7,451 bases of DNA. Source: a bacterium (lineage in GTDB: Bacteria > SM23-31 > JAUVVT01). Shown here one piece after another: positions 1-7,451 of this stretch. Where the stretch lies: NCBI GenBank assembly GCA_030616165.1, contig JAUWXV010000186.1, positions 1 to 7,451 of the forward strand. The letters are read 5' to 3'. Position 1 is the first letter of the stretch, and each line of letters begins with the position of its first letter. A model generated the notes under the pieces. The model had not been told where the DNA came from and did no database searches. It worked only from the letters and a program-made list of their open reading frames with translations. Made by a program: the position numbers and the translations under genes.

Positions 1-558
1 TGATTTTCCTCCTTTAACAATATTATGAACAGATATATCTACCTTGTAAGAATCCGTTTCAAACGAAATGATTTTCAACAATAAATCAAATCCAGAATAA
101 TCTATTTCATTATCAAAGTCTTCGGCAACAGTAGGACCATAAAATGTGACAAGACCATTTTTCACCAACATTGAAATCTCTAAAGCGGTTAAATCACTAT
201 ATCCCACAAATATTTTGGGATTTTTTTTTATCAGTTCAAAGTCAATATATTTTAGAATCCTGATACTTCCATATCCACCTCTTGAACAAAAAACAGCCTT
301 CACAGAATTATCACAGAACAATTCATGCAAATCAGATGCCCTCTCTTCATCCGTTCCAGAGAGATATCCCCTTTCACCATATACATGCTTTCCAAGTTTA
401 ACATTAAATCCAAGATTTTTAAGATAATTGATGCCTTTATCCAGTTTCTCTTTGAAAATCGGACTTGCAGGGGAAATAATACCTATTGTATCTCCTATAT
501 TTAGCCTTTCAGGTTTTATTATCTTTTTTATCCCAAATAATAATATTAAAAAATAATA
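1..558 (-). CDS. LD-carboxypeptidase (peptidase S66), N-terminal part, start codon unresolved
   Basis: S66 enzymes cut the L,D bond that releases the terminal D-Ala of tetrapeptide muropeptides; the MccF branch cleaves microcin C-type peptides. The open frame gives 186 residues and leaves the window at position 1. It shows the family opening (KPERL, then IGDTIGIISPASP, residues 15-33), GTDEERASDLHE (68-79), the loop SRGGYGSIRIL (92-102), and GYSDLT (119-124), where Ser121 (codon 196-198) is the expected nucleophile, followed by a YGP motif. The catalytic Glu and His of the family lie further C-terminal, outside the window; full members are about 300 residues. The frame is closed upstream by TAA at 559-561, and no ATG, GTG or TTG occurs between that stop and the conserved domain. 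Either a rare start (ATA/ATT) is used or the frame was broken by the 13-bp duplication beside it. Family call is strong; the 5' end given is only the open limit. Confidence 0.88.
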
Positions 559-564
559 TTAAAA
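539..564. repeat. Perfect 13-bp tandem duplication at the 5' end of the LD-carboxypeptidase gene
   Basis: The plus-strand unit AATAATATTAAAA occurs twice with no gap, at 539-551 and 552-564. It lies exactly where the LD-carboxypeptidase reading frame should begin. Because 13 is not a multiple of three, gain or loss of one unit shifts the frame. With one unit removed, the enzyme frame continues upstream to a TTG at 569-571 (minus strand), encoding a short hydrophobic N-terminus (VFLILLFGIKK) that runs into the domain. Confidence 0.9.
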
Positions 565-829
565 ATACCAAACTTAGAGCAAAATATCTTTATATTGATA
601 TTTAAAGAAATACCTTAAAAACCTTACCTAACAATATAAAAAAAAATAATTTAAAATCAAAGTAAAAAAAATTTTAAAAAAGGTGTGAAATAAGAAGATT
701 TTTGACTTCTATAATATTAATTTTTTGAAAAATAAGAAGTTAAATCGAGATTTTTAATAATCATCGGTAGGTAAAAACCTATTTTACCGTATTTCATAAA
801 ATTACATTGATTGTTACAAAAGGTATATT
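559..829. other. AT-rich intergenic spacer
   Basis: This spacer separates the AMMECR1-type gene from the LD-carboxypeptidase gene, both transcribed leftward. It is rich in A and T runs. It contains a weak stem (GGTAAAA 770-776 with TTTTACC 782-788) and a six-base inverted pair (ACTTCT 705-710, AGAAGT 735-740). Neither is followed by a convincing U tract. No gene is recognisable in it. Confidence 0.6.
631..660 (-). promoter_or_regulatory. Possible promoter for the LD-carboxypeptidase gene
   Basis: Reading the minus strand, TTGATT (660-655) is followed after 16 bases by TATATT (638-633), a passable sigma-70-like pair about 60 bases before the likely gene start. The spacer is A/T homopolymer. 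In such AT-rich sequence pairs like this arise easily by chance, so this is only a candidate. Confidence 0.22.
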
Positions 830-1387
830 TTATTCCGAATGCTTTCTTTCGCCAAAGACTTCCGCAGAAAATATTTTTATAACCGTATCTGATTCCTTCC
901 ATGCATTTTTTTCCAGTCCTGCTTTATAACATGTTTGTTCAAGAAACTTTATCCTGTCCCACTTATATTCCGTTGCAACCTGCGGAAGCAATAATCCCTT
1001 ATATCCCCACCTCTCTATTAGAAGACCATGTTTACCAACCTCTATCTCGGAAATATCTTTAACTTCTTCAAGGAGGGATAAAACAGAAATTCCAATTTCT
1101 ATATCATTTAGTTCCTCTTCAGTTAACGGGGGAAATCTTGGGTCATGTAAAGCGGCGGATTGTGCAACTTCACTGACTATCTTATGAAGGCTGTCGATTG
1201 GAAATGAATACCCTATGCATCCCCTCAAGTTCCCTTTCTTTGTAATTGTAACGAATGCCCCCCGGTTCTCTTTTAATTGGTCACTCTTTACAGTAAAATC
1301 GGGTGTCTTCTCCCCTTTTACTGCACAGTATATCGATTCTTTTGCTATTTTCATTAATTCTTCTTTTTCTTCATCAGATAAACTCAT
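830..1387 (-). CDS. AMMECR1-domain protein (AmmeMemoRadiSam system protein A type)
   Basis: This is a complete 185-residue protein covering one AMMECR1 domain, the usual length for bacterial and archaeal members. Diagnostic motifs are LRGCIGY (54-60, with the conserved Cys57), HDPRFPPLTEEEL (81-93), the GISVLS strand (99-104), GLLLPQVA (131-138) and FLEQTCYKAGL (148-158). There is no signal peptide or membrane segment, so it should be cytoplasmic. In many prokaryotes this domain is encoded with or fused to a MEMO1-like protein and a radical SAM protein; the biochemical role of the domain is not settled. Neither partner is in this window. The ATG at 1387 is preceded by a good ribosome binding site, which supports the start. 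The gene is 179 bp downstream of the giant secreted-protein gene on the same strand and has its own hairpin-bearing leader, so it may be transcribed separately. Family assignment is firm; function is not. Confidence 0.95.
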   Translation of the reverse strand: MSLSDEEKEELMKIAKESIYCAVKGEKTPDFTVKSDQLKENRGAFVTITKKGNLRGCIGYSFPIDSLHKIVSEVAQSAALHDPRFPPLTEEELNDIEIGISVLSLLEEVKDISEIEVGKHGLLIERWGYKGLLLPQVATEYKWDRIKFLEQTCYKAGLEKNAWKESDTVIKIFSAEVFGERKHSE

Positions 1388-1391
1388 ATTT

Positions 1392-1398
1392 CTTCCTT
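1392..1398 (-). promoter_or_regulatory. Ribosome binding site of the AMMECR1-type gene
   Basis: The minus strand reads AAGGAAG about five bases before the ATG at 1387. It is the only clear Shine-Dalgarno sequence near a start in this window and fixes the start of the 185-residue protein. Confidence 0.7.
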
Positions 1399-1408
1399 TC
1401 TATCAGAT

Positions 1409-1433
1409 AATCCCCTGACTAAAGTCAGGGATT
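1409..1433. repeat. Hairpin-forming inverted repeat in the AMMECR1 gene leader
   Basis: CCCTGACT (1413-1420) and AGTCAGGG (1423-1430) are perfect inverted arms around AA. The stem extends by AAT/ATT (1409-1411 with 1431-1433) past a bulged C at 1412. It is strikingly GC-rich for its surroundings. In the leftward transcript it ends about ten bases before the ribosome binding site of the AMMECR1-type gene and begins 134 bases after the stop of the giant gene. No U tract follows on either strand, so it is not a standard terminator. It could be a leader hairpin, a processing site or a small dispersed palindrome. Confidence 0.75.
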
Positions 1434-1566
1434 AATGATTATTTATTCTATAAAACAAAATAAATAAAAAAAGTTTATTTCCAAAGATTTTTTATTAATT
1501 ATTAAAAATATTGTAAAAGACTTGGAGAGAACTTTATGAGCGGGAATATTTTTTTTTAGTAAAATG

Positions 1567-4500
1567 TTACTTAAGGAAGAGCATCTTTTTGGTGATATAA
1601 AAGTTTTTGGCAGTTATTGAATACATATAAATTCCGGAGGCAACATATCCGCCGAATTTATCCCTTCCATCCCACCTCACAAAATACCATCCAGGATTCT
1701 GGACATTCTCTACAAGAGTTGCTACTTCCTGACCGAGCAGATTGAAGATTTTAATGGAGATATAACTCGTTTGGGGAACAGAATATTCAATAATTGTCTC
1801 AGCGTTAAATGGATTCGGATAATTCTGGAGTAATGTAAATTTATTCGGCAGCCCACTTTCAAAATTATCATCATCTACTCCAGATACCACACCAAGTGTA
1901 AAACTCCAATCCTCTCTGCTGTATGTAATAAGATTATTATTGTTCCTGGAAATAATTCGCCAGTAATAAACATTCGGCTGAAACAAAGAGGCAGAGATAC
2001 TTATAAAATTCGAATCTGAAGGAATATTATTCCTTGAATAAATTATAAAACCCTCATTAAATGTTGTATCAGAAGATATTTCAATAGTATAAGTTATACT
2101 CAAAAGAGGGTCTGGATCTATAGACTTTTCCCATCTAAAAACTATCTCTTCAGGAATAGGATTAAAAGATGCATTATCAAGAGGCGAAATCAAACCAAAT
2201 GGAGGAGGTGGATCGTTTTTGTTATTAGTGAAAAATTTCTGAACATCAGACCATTCAGATGTTGCATTTTCATCATCTATAGTCTTTATTCGATAAAACC
2301 AGGCTTTTTCATTTTCCAGAAAATCAGAAACAGTAATTGAATTAATACCTATCTCTGTTGTATCCTGATAAAATATAATAGTGGTGAAGGTGCTGTCAAT
2401 TGATAATTGAATCCAATATCTTAAATTCTCTACATTATCACTGACGTCAGGGTCAACTGCTGGATACCAGCTTATCTCGGGATTTAAATCTATTACAATT
2501 TCACCATTAGAAGGTGAAAATTCCATAGTTACAGGGTAAGGATTATCATTTTTAAGATTAACAATAAAACTGTCCAAGCCAGCAGTATACGAAGAACTAC
2601 CTCCGCCGGTGTCAAACGACTTTATCCTCCAGTAATATAAAATATCATCAATTAGAGAATCATATCCTGAAAGTTCATCCAATTTTATTGCCACTGTTTC
2701 AACACTCTCTTCGGTTTGAGGCTGGACAATCTTTTTCAAATTATCAGAATCTTTTGCTCTTTTACTCATTGATATAACAGGAGTTATATTGTTTTCTACT
2801 ATTTCGGGTGTTACAAAATCAGGATTACTATCTATCTCCAGAATATACTTTACGGTATCCTCAACATTTGGGTCATAAGATTTTGTCCATACAAAGTAAG
2901 ATGTTGGATGTATCTCTTCTCCGGATGAAGGAAAGATAATTTTTGGTTTTAAAGGAGCGACATTATAGTTTAAAACATTTATAACTGTTACTGCAGTATC
3001 TGCACCGCCGTAAGCATCAACAACTTCAAATGAAACAGAGTATATTCCCTGCTGGCGCAGGTTTGGAGTCCATTCAAACTTATAGGTTTCATCTTTTAGA
3101 AAAACTTCTGCTCCATCAGGAATGTTTATGCCGTTTACTGTAAAAGAATCATCATCCGGGTCACTGGCATTAATAGAAATAACAAGAGATTGATTTTCAT
3201 AAATAGATGTATCTGAAATAACAATTATGACTGGATTCCGATTAACATTGATAACACTGATATTAACCTCAATTATATCAGAGCCTCCTCTATTATCACT
3301 TACACTGAATTTTACAACATAATTACCCATTTGCGTAATATCGGGAGTCCATTTAAAATATGGAGCAGGAGAAGCTGTTGAATTAAAAATTGCTCCAGGG
3401 GGCAGTGGACCTATTACATCATAAAAAAGGGAGTCGAGGTTAGGGTCGTTCGCTACAACAGCAAAGATTAACTCATCATTTTCACCAATGGTTTTATCTT
3501 CGATAGGTGAAAATTCAGGTGGAAAATTCTGATCAGTAACCATAATTATAGTTGTTGTACTGTCTGAGCCACCTGATTGGTCTATAACTTTGAATTTAAC
3601 GGAGTAGGTATCAATCTGTTCCGATGTGGGCGTCCAGGTGAATACCTGTGTCAGCGAATCGAATGCAGCCCCAGAAGGCAAATTTGATGCACTAAATGTC
3701 AATTTTTCATTGTCAATGTCTGATGCTTTAACCAAAAATTGAAGGATTTTTCCCACATTAACTGCTTTTGTGGTAATAAACTCAATAACCGGGGGCTGGT
3801 TTACATTTTTTACAGTGATTTGAACCACTGCTTCGTCATATCCATATTTCCCATCAGCGACCGTCAATTTTATAGAATAGTTACCGCTGGAATAATAATC
3901 CGGACGCCAGTTAAAAATTATACTACCTTCAGTAGAGACTGACGCCCCTACGGGGATATCAGAAACACTATAAATCAAAGCATCTCCGTCCAGATCAATT
4001 GCAGATAAGGTAAAATAAATGTAGTCATTTTCGAATACTGAAATATCACCTATTGCATTAAAAGCAGGCGGATGATTAACAACAATTGTGACATTAACAA
4101 AATCGTTTCCACCTCTCCCATCCTCAACATTAAACTTAAGATAATATGTTCCGAATTGAGAAAAATCGGGAATCCAGCGGAATTTACGTGTTAAGATTCT
4201 ATCATAACTTGCTCCTGGCGGTTTTCCTGCAAGATTATAAGAAAGCAAATCTCCGTCAGGGTCTTCGGCATCAATATAGAAGATAAGGCTGTCACTGACA
4301 TTAACATAAAAGGTCGTATCGGAAATATTTGTTATAACAGGTGCCCGATTAGCATCAACAACGATTATGTTTACAGAATCCTTTGTAATTGCTCCCCTTG
4401 CGTCCTTTAATATAAAAATAATCTTGTAGTTTCCACTATCTGTGTAAGATGGAATCCAGGTAAAGAAATGAGAGGAAATAGAATCAAAACTTGCTCTATT

Positions 4501-6282
4501 CATTGTCGAGAGACCTTCGGTATGATATTCGATTTCATCGAGGTCAAGGTCCTGCGCTTTAACCTCGAACTCAAGTGCATGTCCCTCATTTACCGCCAGT
4601 GAATCCGGGAGTTCAACAAATTCTGGAGGTCGATTAACATCAATAACTTTAATCTGGATTGTCTCCAAATCTGAACCACTCATATTATCAGAAACAGTGA
4701 ATGTCAAATAATATACAACATTCATCTGACTTTTGCTCACCACATCATAATCGGGAATCCACCTGAATATTCCACTGGAGCTGAAAGATGCTTCCTCAGG
4801 AAGTTGTGCGGTTTGACCCGACGGATAAATGGTGGAAACATAATAATTCAATGTATCACCATCCGGGTCAGTTGCAGATAAAGTAAAATATAAAGAATCC
4901 CCTTCATTAACTATTTTATTGCCAATTGTTGTAAGAACCGGATTCCGATTAACATTTATAATCACGGTATCCCTGTCAATCCCCCCTCTTTGGTCCATAA
5001 CCGTAAATATCACTGTATCATATCCAACCTGGGTGAAATCCGGTGTCCATCTGAACTTTCTATCATACAAATGATCAAACTGTTGTCCGGCAATTAGAGT
5101 ATCGACCGAATAAATTAGAGTTTCAGTTTCACCAGAATCCGGGTCAACAGCGATAACGTCAAAAACAAGTGTATTACCCACCGTTATTTTCTGGTCAGGA
5201 ATATCTTCTATAACAGGAACACGGTTTCCTGTATAAACAAATATACCCTCTGCCTGAGTTCCAGCATATATATCGATTGGTCTTTCAGGATTAACTTCAA
5301 GGCACTGAACAATTGTAACACCTATTGTAAGTCCAGCATTAATTGCCGTCCAGGACGCATCTGTCTCAAGTTTTTTATAAACTCCGCGATATTCAGTCCC
5401 TGTATATATTTTCGTAATAGAAGACGTATCTATTGCTAAAGATGTAATCCTTGGATAGGGAAAAGGCAATCCAGAGGTAATACTTGTAAAGGTTACTCCC
5501 CTGTTATCACTGTGAAAAACACCGCTGTTCTGAGTTCCTACATATAATTTATTTGGATTTTTGGGGTCAACTACTATTGTTGTGATATTCGGAGAACCGC
5601 TTATCTGACTGGCAAGACTCCAGTTATTTCCGGCATTCTCTGTTTTATATATCTTACCAGTTGATGTGCCTCCATAAAGAATATTGGGATTTACCTTATC
5701 AATAGCAATGTACTTAATGTCAACGCTATCCTGCTGAAGACCATTATTAACTGAAAACCAGGTATTCCCAAAATCTATTGTTTTATAAACACCACTGTCT
5801 GCACTAACATATAAAATTTCAGTATTGACGGGGTTTAATACCAAAGATGATATAGTAGTATCCACCAACCCATAGGCAGGCTTTCCTACCTTTGTCCATA
5901 TTGCACCGCCATCATAACTTCTATAAACACCTCCACTATCAGAAGCTGCAAACAGTGTGTCGGGGAAATTAGGGTCTATTACTATTCCAATAACTTTTTT
6001 ATCTTTTCCAATCCCTTCAATTTCGAATCTTATTCCATTTAATATACTCCAGCTTTTTCCCCCATTTGTTGATTTAAATATAGTTGAAGTATCATTCCCA
6101 GCATAAATTATGTTCAAATTTAATGGATTTATAGCTATCGACCATATAGTCTCCGTTGGCTTCAGAAACATATCTCCAGTAAAACTCCATTGGTCTTTTC
6201 CAGCAAATAACTTTTCTGAAATAATAAAAAATAATGAAACAAAAACTATAAATATATAATAAAAATATTCTTTTCTATCCAT
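1567..6282 (-). CDS. Giant secreted propeller / Ig-like / FN3-like protein with FlgD-like sorting-type C-terminus
   Basis: This 1571-residue protein is built for export and binding rather than catalysis. In order: signal peptide (1-28); seven propeller blades of the sortilin/BNR type (about 47-353); eight tandem cadherin/Ig-like modules of 90-105 residues (354-1107); three FN3-like modules (1108-1464); an acidic linker (GVDDDNFE); and a FlgD-like/type A sorting-type module (1480-1571). It is nearly free of cysteine and has no transmembrane segment after the signal peptide. In FCB bacteria such C-termini usually direct passage through the type IX system, with surface attachment or release; that role is inferred here because no secretion genes are in view. 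Likely jobs are adhesion, matrix or glycan binding. The ATG at 6282 has no Shine-Dalgarno sequence, but the signal peptide follows it directly, so the start is credible. It diverges from the TonB-like/winged-helix gene at 6526. Confidence 0.9.
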   Translation of the reverse strand: MDRKEYFYYIFIVFVSLFFIISEKLFAGKDQWSFTGDMFLKPTETIWSIAINPLNLNIIYAGNDTSTIFKSTNGGKSWSILNGIRFEIEGIGKDKKVIGIVIDPNFPDTLFAASDSGGVYRSYDGGAIWTKVGKPAYGLVDTTISSLVLNPVNTEILYVSADSGVYKTIDFGNTWFSVNNGLQQDSVDIKYIAIDKVNPNILYGGTSTGKIYKTENAGNNWSLASQISGSPNITTIVVDPKNPNKLYVGTQNSGVFHSDNRGVTFTSITSGLPFPYPRITSLAIDTSSITKIYTGTEYRGVYKKLETDASWTAINAGLTIGVTIVQCLEVNPERPIDIYAGTQAEGIFVYTGNRVPVIEDIPDQKITVGNTLVFDVIAVDPDSGETETLIYSVDTLIAGQQFDHLYDRKFRWTPDFTQVGYDTVIFTVMDQRGGIDRDTVIINVNRNPVLTTIGNKIVNEGDSLYFTLSATDPDGDTLNYYVSTIYPSGQTAQLPEEASFSSSGIFRWIPDYDVVSKSQMNVVYYLTFTVSDNMSGSDLETIQIKVIDVNRPPEFVELPDSLAVNEGHALEFEVKAQDLDLDEIEYHTEGLSTMNRASFDSISSHFFTWIPSYTDSGNYKIIFILKDARGAITKDSVNIIVVDANRAPVITNISDTTFYVNVSDSLIFYIDAEDPDGDLLSYNLAGKPPGASYDRILTRKFRWIPDFSQFGTYYLKFNVEDGRGGNDFVNVTIVVNHPPAFNAIGDISVFENDYIYFTLSAIDLDGDALIYSVSDIPVGASVSTEGSIIFNWRPDYYSSGNYSIKLTVADGKYGYDEAVVQITVKNVNQPPVIEFITTKAVNVGKILQFLVKASDIDNEKLTFSASNLPSGAAFDSLTQVFTWTPTSEQIDTYSVKFKVIDQSGGSDSTTTIIMVTDQNFPPEFSPIEDKTIGENDELIFAVVANDPNLDSLFYDVIGPLPPGAIFNSTASPAPYFKWTPDITQMGNYVVKFSVSDNRGGSDIIEVNISVINVNRNPVIIVISDTSIYENQSLVISINASDPDDDSFTVNGINIPDGAEVFLKDETYKFEWTPNLRQQGIYSVSFEVVDAYGGADTAVTVINVLNYNVAPLKPKIIFPSSGEEIHPTSYFVWTKSYDPNVEDTVKYILEIDSNPDFVTPEIVENNITPVISMSKRAKDSDNLKKIVQPQTEESVETVAIKLDELSGYDSLIDDILYYWRIKSFDTGGGSSSYTAGLDSFIVNLKNDNPYPVTMEFSPSNGEIVIDLNPEISWYPAVDPDVSDNVENLRYWIQLSIDSTFTTIIFYQDTTEIGINSITVSDFLENEKAWFYRIKTIDDENATSEWSDVQKFFTNNKNDPPPPFGLISPLDNASFNPIPEEIVFRWEKSIDPDPLLSITYTIEISSDTTFNEGFIIYSRNNIPSDSNFISISASLFQPNVYYWRIISRNNNNLITYSREDWSFTLGVVSGVDDDNFESGLPNKFTLLQNYPNPFNAETIIEYSVPQTSYISIKIFNLLGQEVATLVENVQNPGWYFVRWDGRDKFGGYVASGIYMYSITAKNFYITKKMLFLK
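1570..1845 (-). other. FlgD-like / type A sorting-type C-terminal module
   Basis: Residues 1480-1571 contain FTLLQNYPNPFN, then TIIEYSVP, IKIFNLLGQEVATLV, RWDGRD, SGIYMYSI and the terminal TKKMLFLK. This is the classic order of the FlgD-Ig / type IX sorting-type domain in FCB-group proteins and ends flush with the protein. It implies export to or past the outer membrane. Confidence 0.9.
1891..2961 (-). other. Three FN3-like modules
   Basis: Residues about 1108-1245, 1246-1357 and 1358-1464 share the FN3 style of FCB surface proteins: a P..P or SP.(N/S) opening, (F/S).W.(K/P)..DPD, a Y..(E/Q)(I/L)S.D..F strand and a (Y/F)YWRI or FYRI strand near the end (YYWRI 1216-1220, FYRI 1329-1332, YYWRI 1439-1443). 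The first module carries an unusual charged insert of about 40 residues (roughly 1170-1210). Confidence 0.7.
2962..5223 (-). repeat. Eight tandem cadherin/Ig-like modules
   Basis: Modules begin near residues 354, 446, 551, 646, 737, 829, 920 and 1015. Each opens with an N(R/H/Q/F).P linker, has an N-terminal strand ending in an Asp-rich turn (for example DPDGD, DLDGD, DPDDD), a central F.W.P(D/S) strand, and a closing strand like Y.(V/I)KF.V.D..GG.D. This is the putative-Ig / cadherin-like pattern of bacterial surface proteins. The acidic turns resemble calcium sites. The modules are clearly diverged from one another, so the array is old rather than a recent expansion. Confidence 0.85.
5224..6144 (-). 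repeat. Seven-bladed sortilin/BNR-type beta-propeller region
   Basis: Seven protein-level repeats of about 45 residues follow one pattern: a hydrophobic strand with I(D/N)P, then a (L/I)Y.GT strand, then G(V/I)(Y/F)(K/R)(S/T), then GG..W. Anchors are SIAINP (48-53), GIVIDP (99-104), SLVLNP (146-151), YIAIDK (191-196), TIVVDP (235-240), SLAIDT (281-286) and CLEVNP (327-332). Blade tips include NGGKSW, DGGAIW, FGNTW and AGNNW. Such propellers resemble sortilin, xyloglucanase and Ycf48-type folds. Without catalytic acids that can be pointed to, a binding role is more likely than hydrolysis. Confidence 0.82.
6199..6282 (-). other. Signal peptide of the giant secreted protein
   Basis: Residues 1-28 show a charged start (MDRKE), a long hydrophobic core (YFYYIFIVFVSLFFII) and a polar end (SEKLFAG) before KDQW. 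Cleavage after the Ala or Gly near residues 27-28 is plausible. There is no lipobox cysteine, so this looks like signal peptidase I processing. Confidence 0.8.
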
Positions 6283-6525: not shown

Positions 6526-7451
6526 ATGAGTGACCTAAAAAAATCGTGGATAATTTCAATATTAATTCACATTATTACTGCTTTAATATTATTTTCAATA
6601 AATATCCAGATTGAAAGAAAAGTTCAAAAGTTACCCCTTGAAATAACGTATGTATCTCCGCCGGAAGAACCACCGAAAATTGAAGCAGAAAAAAAAGCAG
6701 ATGTTGTTCTGCCACGAAAAGAAATAATACGACCCAAAAAGGGAATTATTCTTCCAGAAAGGAGAACACCAAAATATATCCCAAAAACTTTACCCCGACT
6801 CTTTATTACACCAGAGGATTCAATTAGATTATGGGAAAAAGATATAAGGAGATATTTTAAAGAGAAGGAAATAGTACCCTTCGCTGGCAACAAGTTTGAA
6901 TTTCTTAACTACGACCATAATGAAAAATATAAAAAAGCATTGGAACAAGATTCAGTAAAGATGCTTGAAAAAATACTCGCTGCAAACCTCGAAAAGTTTG
7001 CCTTGAGTGATGAAGAGATAAAGAATTTACAGACATTCTCTGACCCCACTGAGGAATGGTTGTTTCGCAGGCAGGGTGGTTCTCAAGTTCTCCCCATTTT
7101 ACCACTGATTGCTAAAGGGATACAATTAGCTCAGGAAGCCCTAAGAAAGATATTCTCGAAAGAAAATCCGGTCAGTGCAAACTTATTTTTAAGTGATATT
7201 GAAATTCAAATCCTTAAAATAATCTGGGCAAAAAGAGTTGTAACACCATCAACATTATATAAAAGCCTGCCAGTTGGCATAAACCTGAGACTTTCAAGTC
7301 TGGCAAGCATACTTATAGAATTAGAATCTAAAAATATTTTAATTTCAAAAAAGGGACTTCATGAATATCTTTATATGCCAGTGGTGAGTAAAAGGGATGT
7401 TTCTGAATATTACATTAGAAATTTGATAGAACTTGAAGATGCAGAACAAAA
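6526..7451 (+). CDS. TonB-like membrane anchor fused to a BlaI-like winged-helix domain, 3' end outside window
   Basis: The frame runs from ATG 6526 to the window edge (308 codons plus two bases) without a stop. Residues 1-7 are short and basic. Residues 8-25 form one hydrophobic helix carrying a Ser-x3-His pair (S11, H15), as in the TonB N-terminal anchor. Residues 44-92 are rich in Pro, Lys, Glu and Arg (PPEEPPK, RPKK, PERRTPK), like a TonB periplasmic stalk. Residues 95-215 are charged and mostly helical in character, and I do not recognise them. Residues 222-290 resemble the BlaI/MecI/CopY winged helix (LSDIEIQILKIIWAKR, then LASILIELESKNILISKKG, then EYLYMPVVSKRD). No TonB C-terminal domain is visible so far. 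There is no Shine-Dalgarno sequence, but TAA at 6484-6486 closes the frame upstream and no earlier start exists. Anchor and frame are clear; the winged-helix call is by pattern only. Confidence 0.8.
   Translation, partial: MSDLKKSWIISILIHIITALILFSINIQIERKVQKLPLEITYVSPPEEPPKIEAEKKADVVLPRKEIIRPKKGIILPERRTPKYIPKTLPRLFITPEDSIRLWEKDIRRYFKEKEIVPFAGNKFEFLNYDHNEKYKKALEQDSVKMLEKILAANLEKFALSDEEIKNLQTFSDPTEEWLFRRQGGSQVLPILPLIAKGIQLAQEALRKIFSKENPVSANLFLSDIEIQILKIIWAKRVVTPSTLYKSLPVGINLRLSSLASILIELESKNILISKKGLHEYLYMPVVSKRDVSEYYIRNLIELEDAEQ
7189..7395 (+). other. BlaI/MecI/CopY-like winged-helix domain
   Basis: Residues 222-290 match the layout of penicillinase-repressor domains: helix 1 with S-x-E-x2-IL-x-IIW, a short helix around TPSTLYKSLP, a recognition-helix-like LSSLASILIELESKN, then a wing ending in EYLYMP-VSK. 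There is no ATG, GTG or TTG close before the domain, so it is not a separate gene; it is made as part of the fusion. Confidence 0.6.

Follow-up and report, generated by a model that had tools for sequence, protein, structure and literature searches.

The window, i.e., the whole stretch of DNA that was analysed, is an entire contig (C43, 7451 bases) of a 3.74 Mb genome that is 90% complete (G000). At its right end lies a gene on the forward strand, open from 6526 to 7449 (+) over 308 codons with zero stops, which runs off the contig. With this gene and its relatives, a little-studied bacterial phylum has a conserved membrane protein with a TonB-like start and a repressor-family fold at its end. 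The parts of the gene are as follows.

6526..7451, + strand: whole coding frame, 308 codons seen, with the 3' end lost at the contig end
6526..6612, + strand: basic N-terminus (K5, K6) and signal-anchor helix, residues 1-29, with S11-x3-H15-x6-L22, a TonB/TolA SHLS-type motif in which the last Ser is replaced by Asn
6613..6801, + strand: Pro/Lys/Glu-rich stalk, residues 30-92, the least conserved part
6802..7077, + strand: region without a family match, residues 93-184, probably helical, with conserved D98-S99, P118, L127 and D142
7078..7170, + strand: conserved amphipathic helix, residues 185-215, with V-x-P-I-x-P-L-I-x-K-G-I-x-L-A
7189..7416, + strand: BlaI/MecI/CopY-type winged helix, residues 222-297, matching PF03965 positions 1-76 of 115
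7279..7329, + strand: recognition-helix segment, residues 252-268, in which the BlaI block A-Y-T-T-x-x-T is lost
7417..7451, + strand: start of a C-terminal tail in place of the BlaI dimerisation part, assigned by comparison with the orthologues

The gene and its relatives

Judged against a 335-residue orthologue (L002), the window protein is short of about 27 residues. Of the five other genomes from this small phylum, four encode a full-length orthologue (L002, L003, L004 and L005), with identities to the window protein of 66%, 31%, 25% and 23%, respectively, and each of them is encoded in one frame with its parts in the same order as in the window protein. Across the five proteins just 24 positions are invariant, among them K5, S11 and H15. 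The fifth other genome of the phylum, which is 76% complete, yielded no orthologue; it has only ordinary BlaI proteins and a short PadR-like ORF (L089), which was considered as a sixth-genome candidate and rejected as a family member.

The dN/dS ratio between the two nearest orthologues, 0.13 for the whole comparison and about 0.2 for the winged helix alone, shows that purifying selection acts between them. From the four full-length orthologues and the dN/dS of 0.13 it follows that the gene is neither a frameshift artefact nor a linker. The initial annotation had described one uninterrupted frame, as is found also in each orthologue, and had allowed that a frameshift might have joined two genes; this possibility, and with it that of a chimera or of a chance arrangement, is excluded by the common order of parts and the purifying selection. 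The architecture of a TonB-type anchor with a BlaI winged helix is real and conserved, and the homologues found to share it, which had been thought worth searching for, are all from the same phylum.

Neither 380 genomes drawn from across the domain, of which 136 have T9SS-type tails, nor 345 genomes of one large T9SS-bearing phylum gave a full-length match; with a few genomes present in more than one set, this amounts to about 720 genomes outside the phylum, and a further search covered one genome. The lone match of the contig search (L018) is an ordinary BlaI with M56 and not the fused protein. In the open-access literature, no paper was found on a fusion of a TonB-type anchor with a BlaI winged helix.

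The fused gene is a solitary one. Its divergent neighbour, in both the window and L002, encodes a large secreted protein with propeller-like and Ig-like repeats and a sorting-tail-like end, an arrangement common only to these two nearest relatives, and the neighbours differ in L090, L091 and L092 (a channel protein; CorC-type proteins and homoserine dehydrogenase; a DNA methylase), so that no conserved neighbour was found. Nor does an M56, ExbB/ExbD, tol or protease gene adjoin it in the flanks seen, which for the window genome means the 5' flank. The secreted protein of the window (1567-6282, -) has 1,571 residues; its N-terminus is propeller-like, its repeats are numerous and Ig/cadherin-like, and its tail is of FlgD-like/T9SS type.

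The anchor, the stalk and the middle region

A single N-terminal membrane helix with a Ser-x3-His pair, followed by a Pro/Lys/Glu-rich stalk, had been described from the letters of the window, and both descriptions hold. The sole strong hydrophobic stretch of the window protein is residues 9-27, where the 19-residue Kyte-Doolittle (KD) mean is 2.50, and the KD mean of the anchor helix ranges from 1.95 to 2.56 across the five family members. All five share M1, K5, S11 and H15, while the rest of the helix varies, and the P/K/E-rich composition extends over residues 43-92. The SHLS motif of TonB and TolA is defined as S-x3-H-x6-L-x3-S; its Ser and His touch ExbB/TolQ in the Ton and Tol motors solved by cryo-EM, and the His is indispensable (PMC12215075). 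In the window protein, which reads S-H-L-N, L22 completes the S-H-L part of the motif; S-H-L is present in four of the five proteins, and the full S-H-L-S in that of G003.

The Ser-x3-His pair is found in 19 of 84 ORFs with an N-terminal transmembrane helix, taken from the phylum and the other fetched loci. Three of the 19 belong to this family and sixteen are TonB-type proteins, where TonB-type means a TonB_C match or a place behind exbB/exbD, and one of these sixteen has the motif ahead of the helix. The anchor reads ISILIHI in the window protein and ISIALHI in the TonB encoded behind exbB/exbD in the same genome.

The family thus resembles TonB in its Ser-x3-His signal anchor, its basic N-terminus and its Pro/Lys/Glu stalk, and it occurs in the same genomes as ExbB/ExbD and true TonBs. 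It differs from TonB in that its C-terminal end is a winged helix, in having an extra conserved helical region, and in that its gene is not beside exbB/exbD. TonB and TolA carry a beta-rich C-terminal domain. It had been considered that the full gene might end in the standard domain of TonB, but none of the five members matches TonB_C (PF03544) or TonB_2 at E 1.

The family anchor is also very close to that of E. coli TolA (IISAVLHVILFAAL), and both proteins have a helical middle part. The anchor of E. coli TolA is KLKRAIIISAVLHVILF (PMC12215075). If the protein were the phylum's stand-in for TolA in Tol-Pal, and not a TonB that serves uptake, this similarity, the full S-H-L-S in G003 and the helical middle region would all be accounted for. 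The C-terminal domain is, however, unrelated to that of TolA, the five members have no Pfam match to a TolA domain, and the gene lies outside a tol operon, with no tol genes in the flanks. Such a role, which is a narrower version of the explanation preferred below, is rather improbable.

For the middle region the initial annotation had proposed a helical part of no recognised family, which agrees with the lack of any family match found for residues 93-184 and with their probable helicity. A search for homologues of this region in 386 genomes gave nothing beyond the five known proteins. Two weak matches were discarded as chance, one of which (L099) sits on an Obg GTPase, the other being L100.

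A winged-helix core without the BlaI recognition block

The BlaI/MecI/CopY-like domain suggested for the end of the protein is recovered by a PF03965 match at residues 222-297 with E 1.1e-9 and 39.1 bits, against a curated cut-off of 22.6 that is exceeded by all five orthologous proteins. The match and the four orthologues contradict the alternative that residues 222-290 are an ordinary linker. When the family profile is compared with solved winged helices, it matches 2k4b with E 6e-11, BlaI (1p6r) with E 1.6e-8 and MecI (1okr) with E 0.004. AlphaFold2 models from single sequences, with a pLDDT of 42.5 for the window protein and 51.2 for its last 122 residues, are of too low a quality for use, so that it is from profiles and motifs that fold and topology are assigned. 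The fused protein is the sole PF03965 match in the 90% complete window genome, although as many as four ordinary BlaI proteins are encoded in related genomes.

Consider now how the five domains compare with 14 ordinary BlaI proteins, most of them from the same genomes. At twelve core positions (222, 226, 229, 230, 234, 244, 266, 269, 272, 276, 283 and 285), 47 of 60 cells agree with the BlaI consensus; the residues shared with the BlaI/MecI/CopY family include L222, E226, W234, L266, K269, Y283 and P285 in window numbering. In the recognition block A-Y-T-T-x-x-T (residues 255-258 and 261), with its consensus derived from the same 14 proteins, 1 of 25 cells agrees. Residues 257-261 show no common replacement (SSLAS, SNIVN, ETLKV, IDVLG and SDVVM), and acidic residues are gained in the block of three of the five proteins. 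Lys269 and part of the wing lysines are retained, and with net charges of +5, +6, +5, +8 and -1 the five winged helices resemble ordinary BlaI. The winged-helix core is therefore kept while the recognition-helix block of BlaI is lost, and what is new here is that this holds in all five proteins. The wing of the G005 orthologue (L005 1109-1400) also contains an insertion of 23 residues, which resembles a local duplication of a K-x-E-x-x-Y-x-P segment.

MecI contacts DNA with Lys43, Thr44, Arg46 and Thr47. BlaI reads its operator with residues of the recognition helix, and as a dimer (PMC3506622). In all five family members the PF03965 match stops at positions 65-80 of 115, ahead of the dimerisation part, and the C-terminal tail, which has about 40 residues in the orthologues and ends K-I/L-x-x-L-S/N, shows no alignment to the BlaI dimerisation helices. 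These losses suggest that the domain may no longer read DNA. If it does not, a PF03965 match by itself is no proof of a repressor.

The family thus differs from BlaI/MecI/CopY in that it is membrane anchored, has lost A-Y-T-T-x-x-T, lacks the dimerisation part and has no M56/BlaR1 neighbour in the flanks seen. Operons of the same phylum that encode BlaI and an M56-TonB_C protein (L103 and L104) likewise bring BlaI-type and TonB-type parts together, but in two genes, one for a soluble ordinary BlaI and the other for an M56 protein that passes the membrane several times and has TonB_C repeats. They could be the origin of the parts of the fused protein. In L103 (G005:C72:500-6000) the two genes occupy 457-4038, and the M56/BlaR1-type protein, encoded directly after BlaI and 1,052 residues long, has an ExbD-like stretch and five TonB_C domains, an unusual repeat number; in L104, BlaI is likewise followed by an M56 protein with TonB_C.

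Topology and the role of the end domain

The flanking charges had been said to leave the topology ambiguous, and they do, with a charge count that clearly favours N-in in one orthologue only. Besides the anchor, none of the five proteins has a strong transmembrane helix. The stretch that comes closest, 188-206, is amphipathic, with a KD of 0.8-1.4 and a hydrophobic moment of 0.40-0.56 over helix 185-215 in the orthologues; it was rejected as a membrane passage, as its hydrophobicity lies below the usual threshold of 1.6 in all five. An N-in/C-out topology is favoured because the Ser-His pair is invariant, the stalk is TonB-like and a second membrane helix is lacking, and the stalk then probably lies in the periplasm. 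Lack of cysteine is common in periplasmic proteins, and the absence of cysteine from all 1,673 residues of the family agrees weakly with such a location; cysteine is nearly absent from the ordinary BlaI proteins of the comparison as well.

With the anchor inserted N-out instead, or with 188-206 as a second membrane passage, the winged helix would be cytoplasmic and the protein could be a membrane-tethered regulator, in which an envelope signal alters DNA binding. No role other than DNA binding is known for BlaI-type winged helices, the charges permit either orientation, four of the five proteins have a positive charge on the domain, and 188-206 is conserved and moderately hydrophobic. Such a protein would be similar to the ToxR/CadC type, where a winged helix and one transmembrane helix are likewise on a single chain, but with the parts reversed: ToxR/CadC proteins have an N-terminal, cytoplasmic winged helix of OmpR/PhoB type, whereas here it is C-terminal, of BlaI type and behind a TonB-type anchor. 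The tethered regulator is nevertheless unlikely: the recognition block is lost without a conserved substitute, the dimerisation part is missing, 188-206 falls short of a transmembrane helix in every member, and it is hard to see what purpose the TonB-type Ser-His pair would serve. That a proton-driven ExbB/TolQ-type motor or the state of the envelope should be coupled, in one piece and through a TonB anchor, to a cytoplasmic winged helix that still touches nucleic acid is quite improbable. Very improbable is a regulator that is membrane-bound at rest and cut by a site-1/site-2-type or M56 protease, so that the fragment acts on DNA; related genomes do have BlaI beside M56 proteases, but a periplasmic domain cannot reach DNA without an N-out topology, the available flanks have no adjoining protease gene, and the recognition-helix residues are lost.

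Three mechanisms had been left open by the initial annotation, and a periplasmic winged helix for protein contact is now favoured over a one-piece envelope-to-DNA regulator by the Ser-His pair, which stays invariant down to orthologues of 23-31% identity, the single transmembrane helix, with no second one to return the domain to the cytoplasm, and the loss of the DNA-reading and dimerisation parts. The preferred explanation, with a probability of about 0.5, is a TonB/TolA-type, probably ExbB/ExbD-coupled protein with a periplasmic, repressor-derived domain by which DNA is no longer read. The protein would be an inner-membrane protein with its N-terminus in the cytoplasm, and its signal-anchor helix would dock on an ExbB/TolQ-type motor via Ser11 and His15, while stalk, helical region and C-terminal domain would extend into the periplasm. 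Because the DNA-reading residues are lost, the fold probably has a new use in protein contact: a winged helix taken over from a BlaI/CopY repressor would most likely serve as contact domain where TonB and TolA have their beta-rich end, with an outer-membrane protein, a peptidoglycan-associated protein or a lipoprotein as candidate partner. Topology, ExbB/ExbD coupling, loss of DNA binding and contact role are all parts that we infer. Against them count the ambiguous charges, the lack of an adjoining exbB/exbD, the BlaI-like net charge, the retained Lys269 and wing lysines and the low pLDDT of the models; to our knowledge there is also no close precedent for a BlaI-type domain that works in the periplasm.

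If the periplasmic contact role is true, a transcription-factor fold has left the cytoplasm to become the functional end of an envelope protein that transmits force, with the fold preserved in spite of the loss of its DNA-reading residues, and the end domains on anchors of TonB/TolA type are of widely different origins. This is relevant to the question of what is pulled by the several ExbB/ExbD motors of poorly studied phyla. ExbB-type motors and TonB_C proteins are present in all six genomes of the phylum, where some of the PF01618 matches are MotA of the flagellar motor and not ExbB. In the window genome, one ExbB, two ExbD and two TonB genes lie in a row (L093/L049, G000:C165), and the second TonB is without the His of Ser-x3-His. 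Elsewhere in the same genome (L101, G000:C286:2000-9000), a frame of 1,194 residues at 1345-4926 has an apparent signal peptide and three TonB_C-type domains without an evident TonB anchor, and a similar, shorter protein is found in L102.
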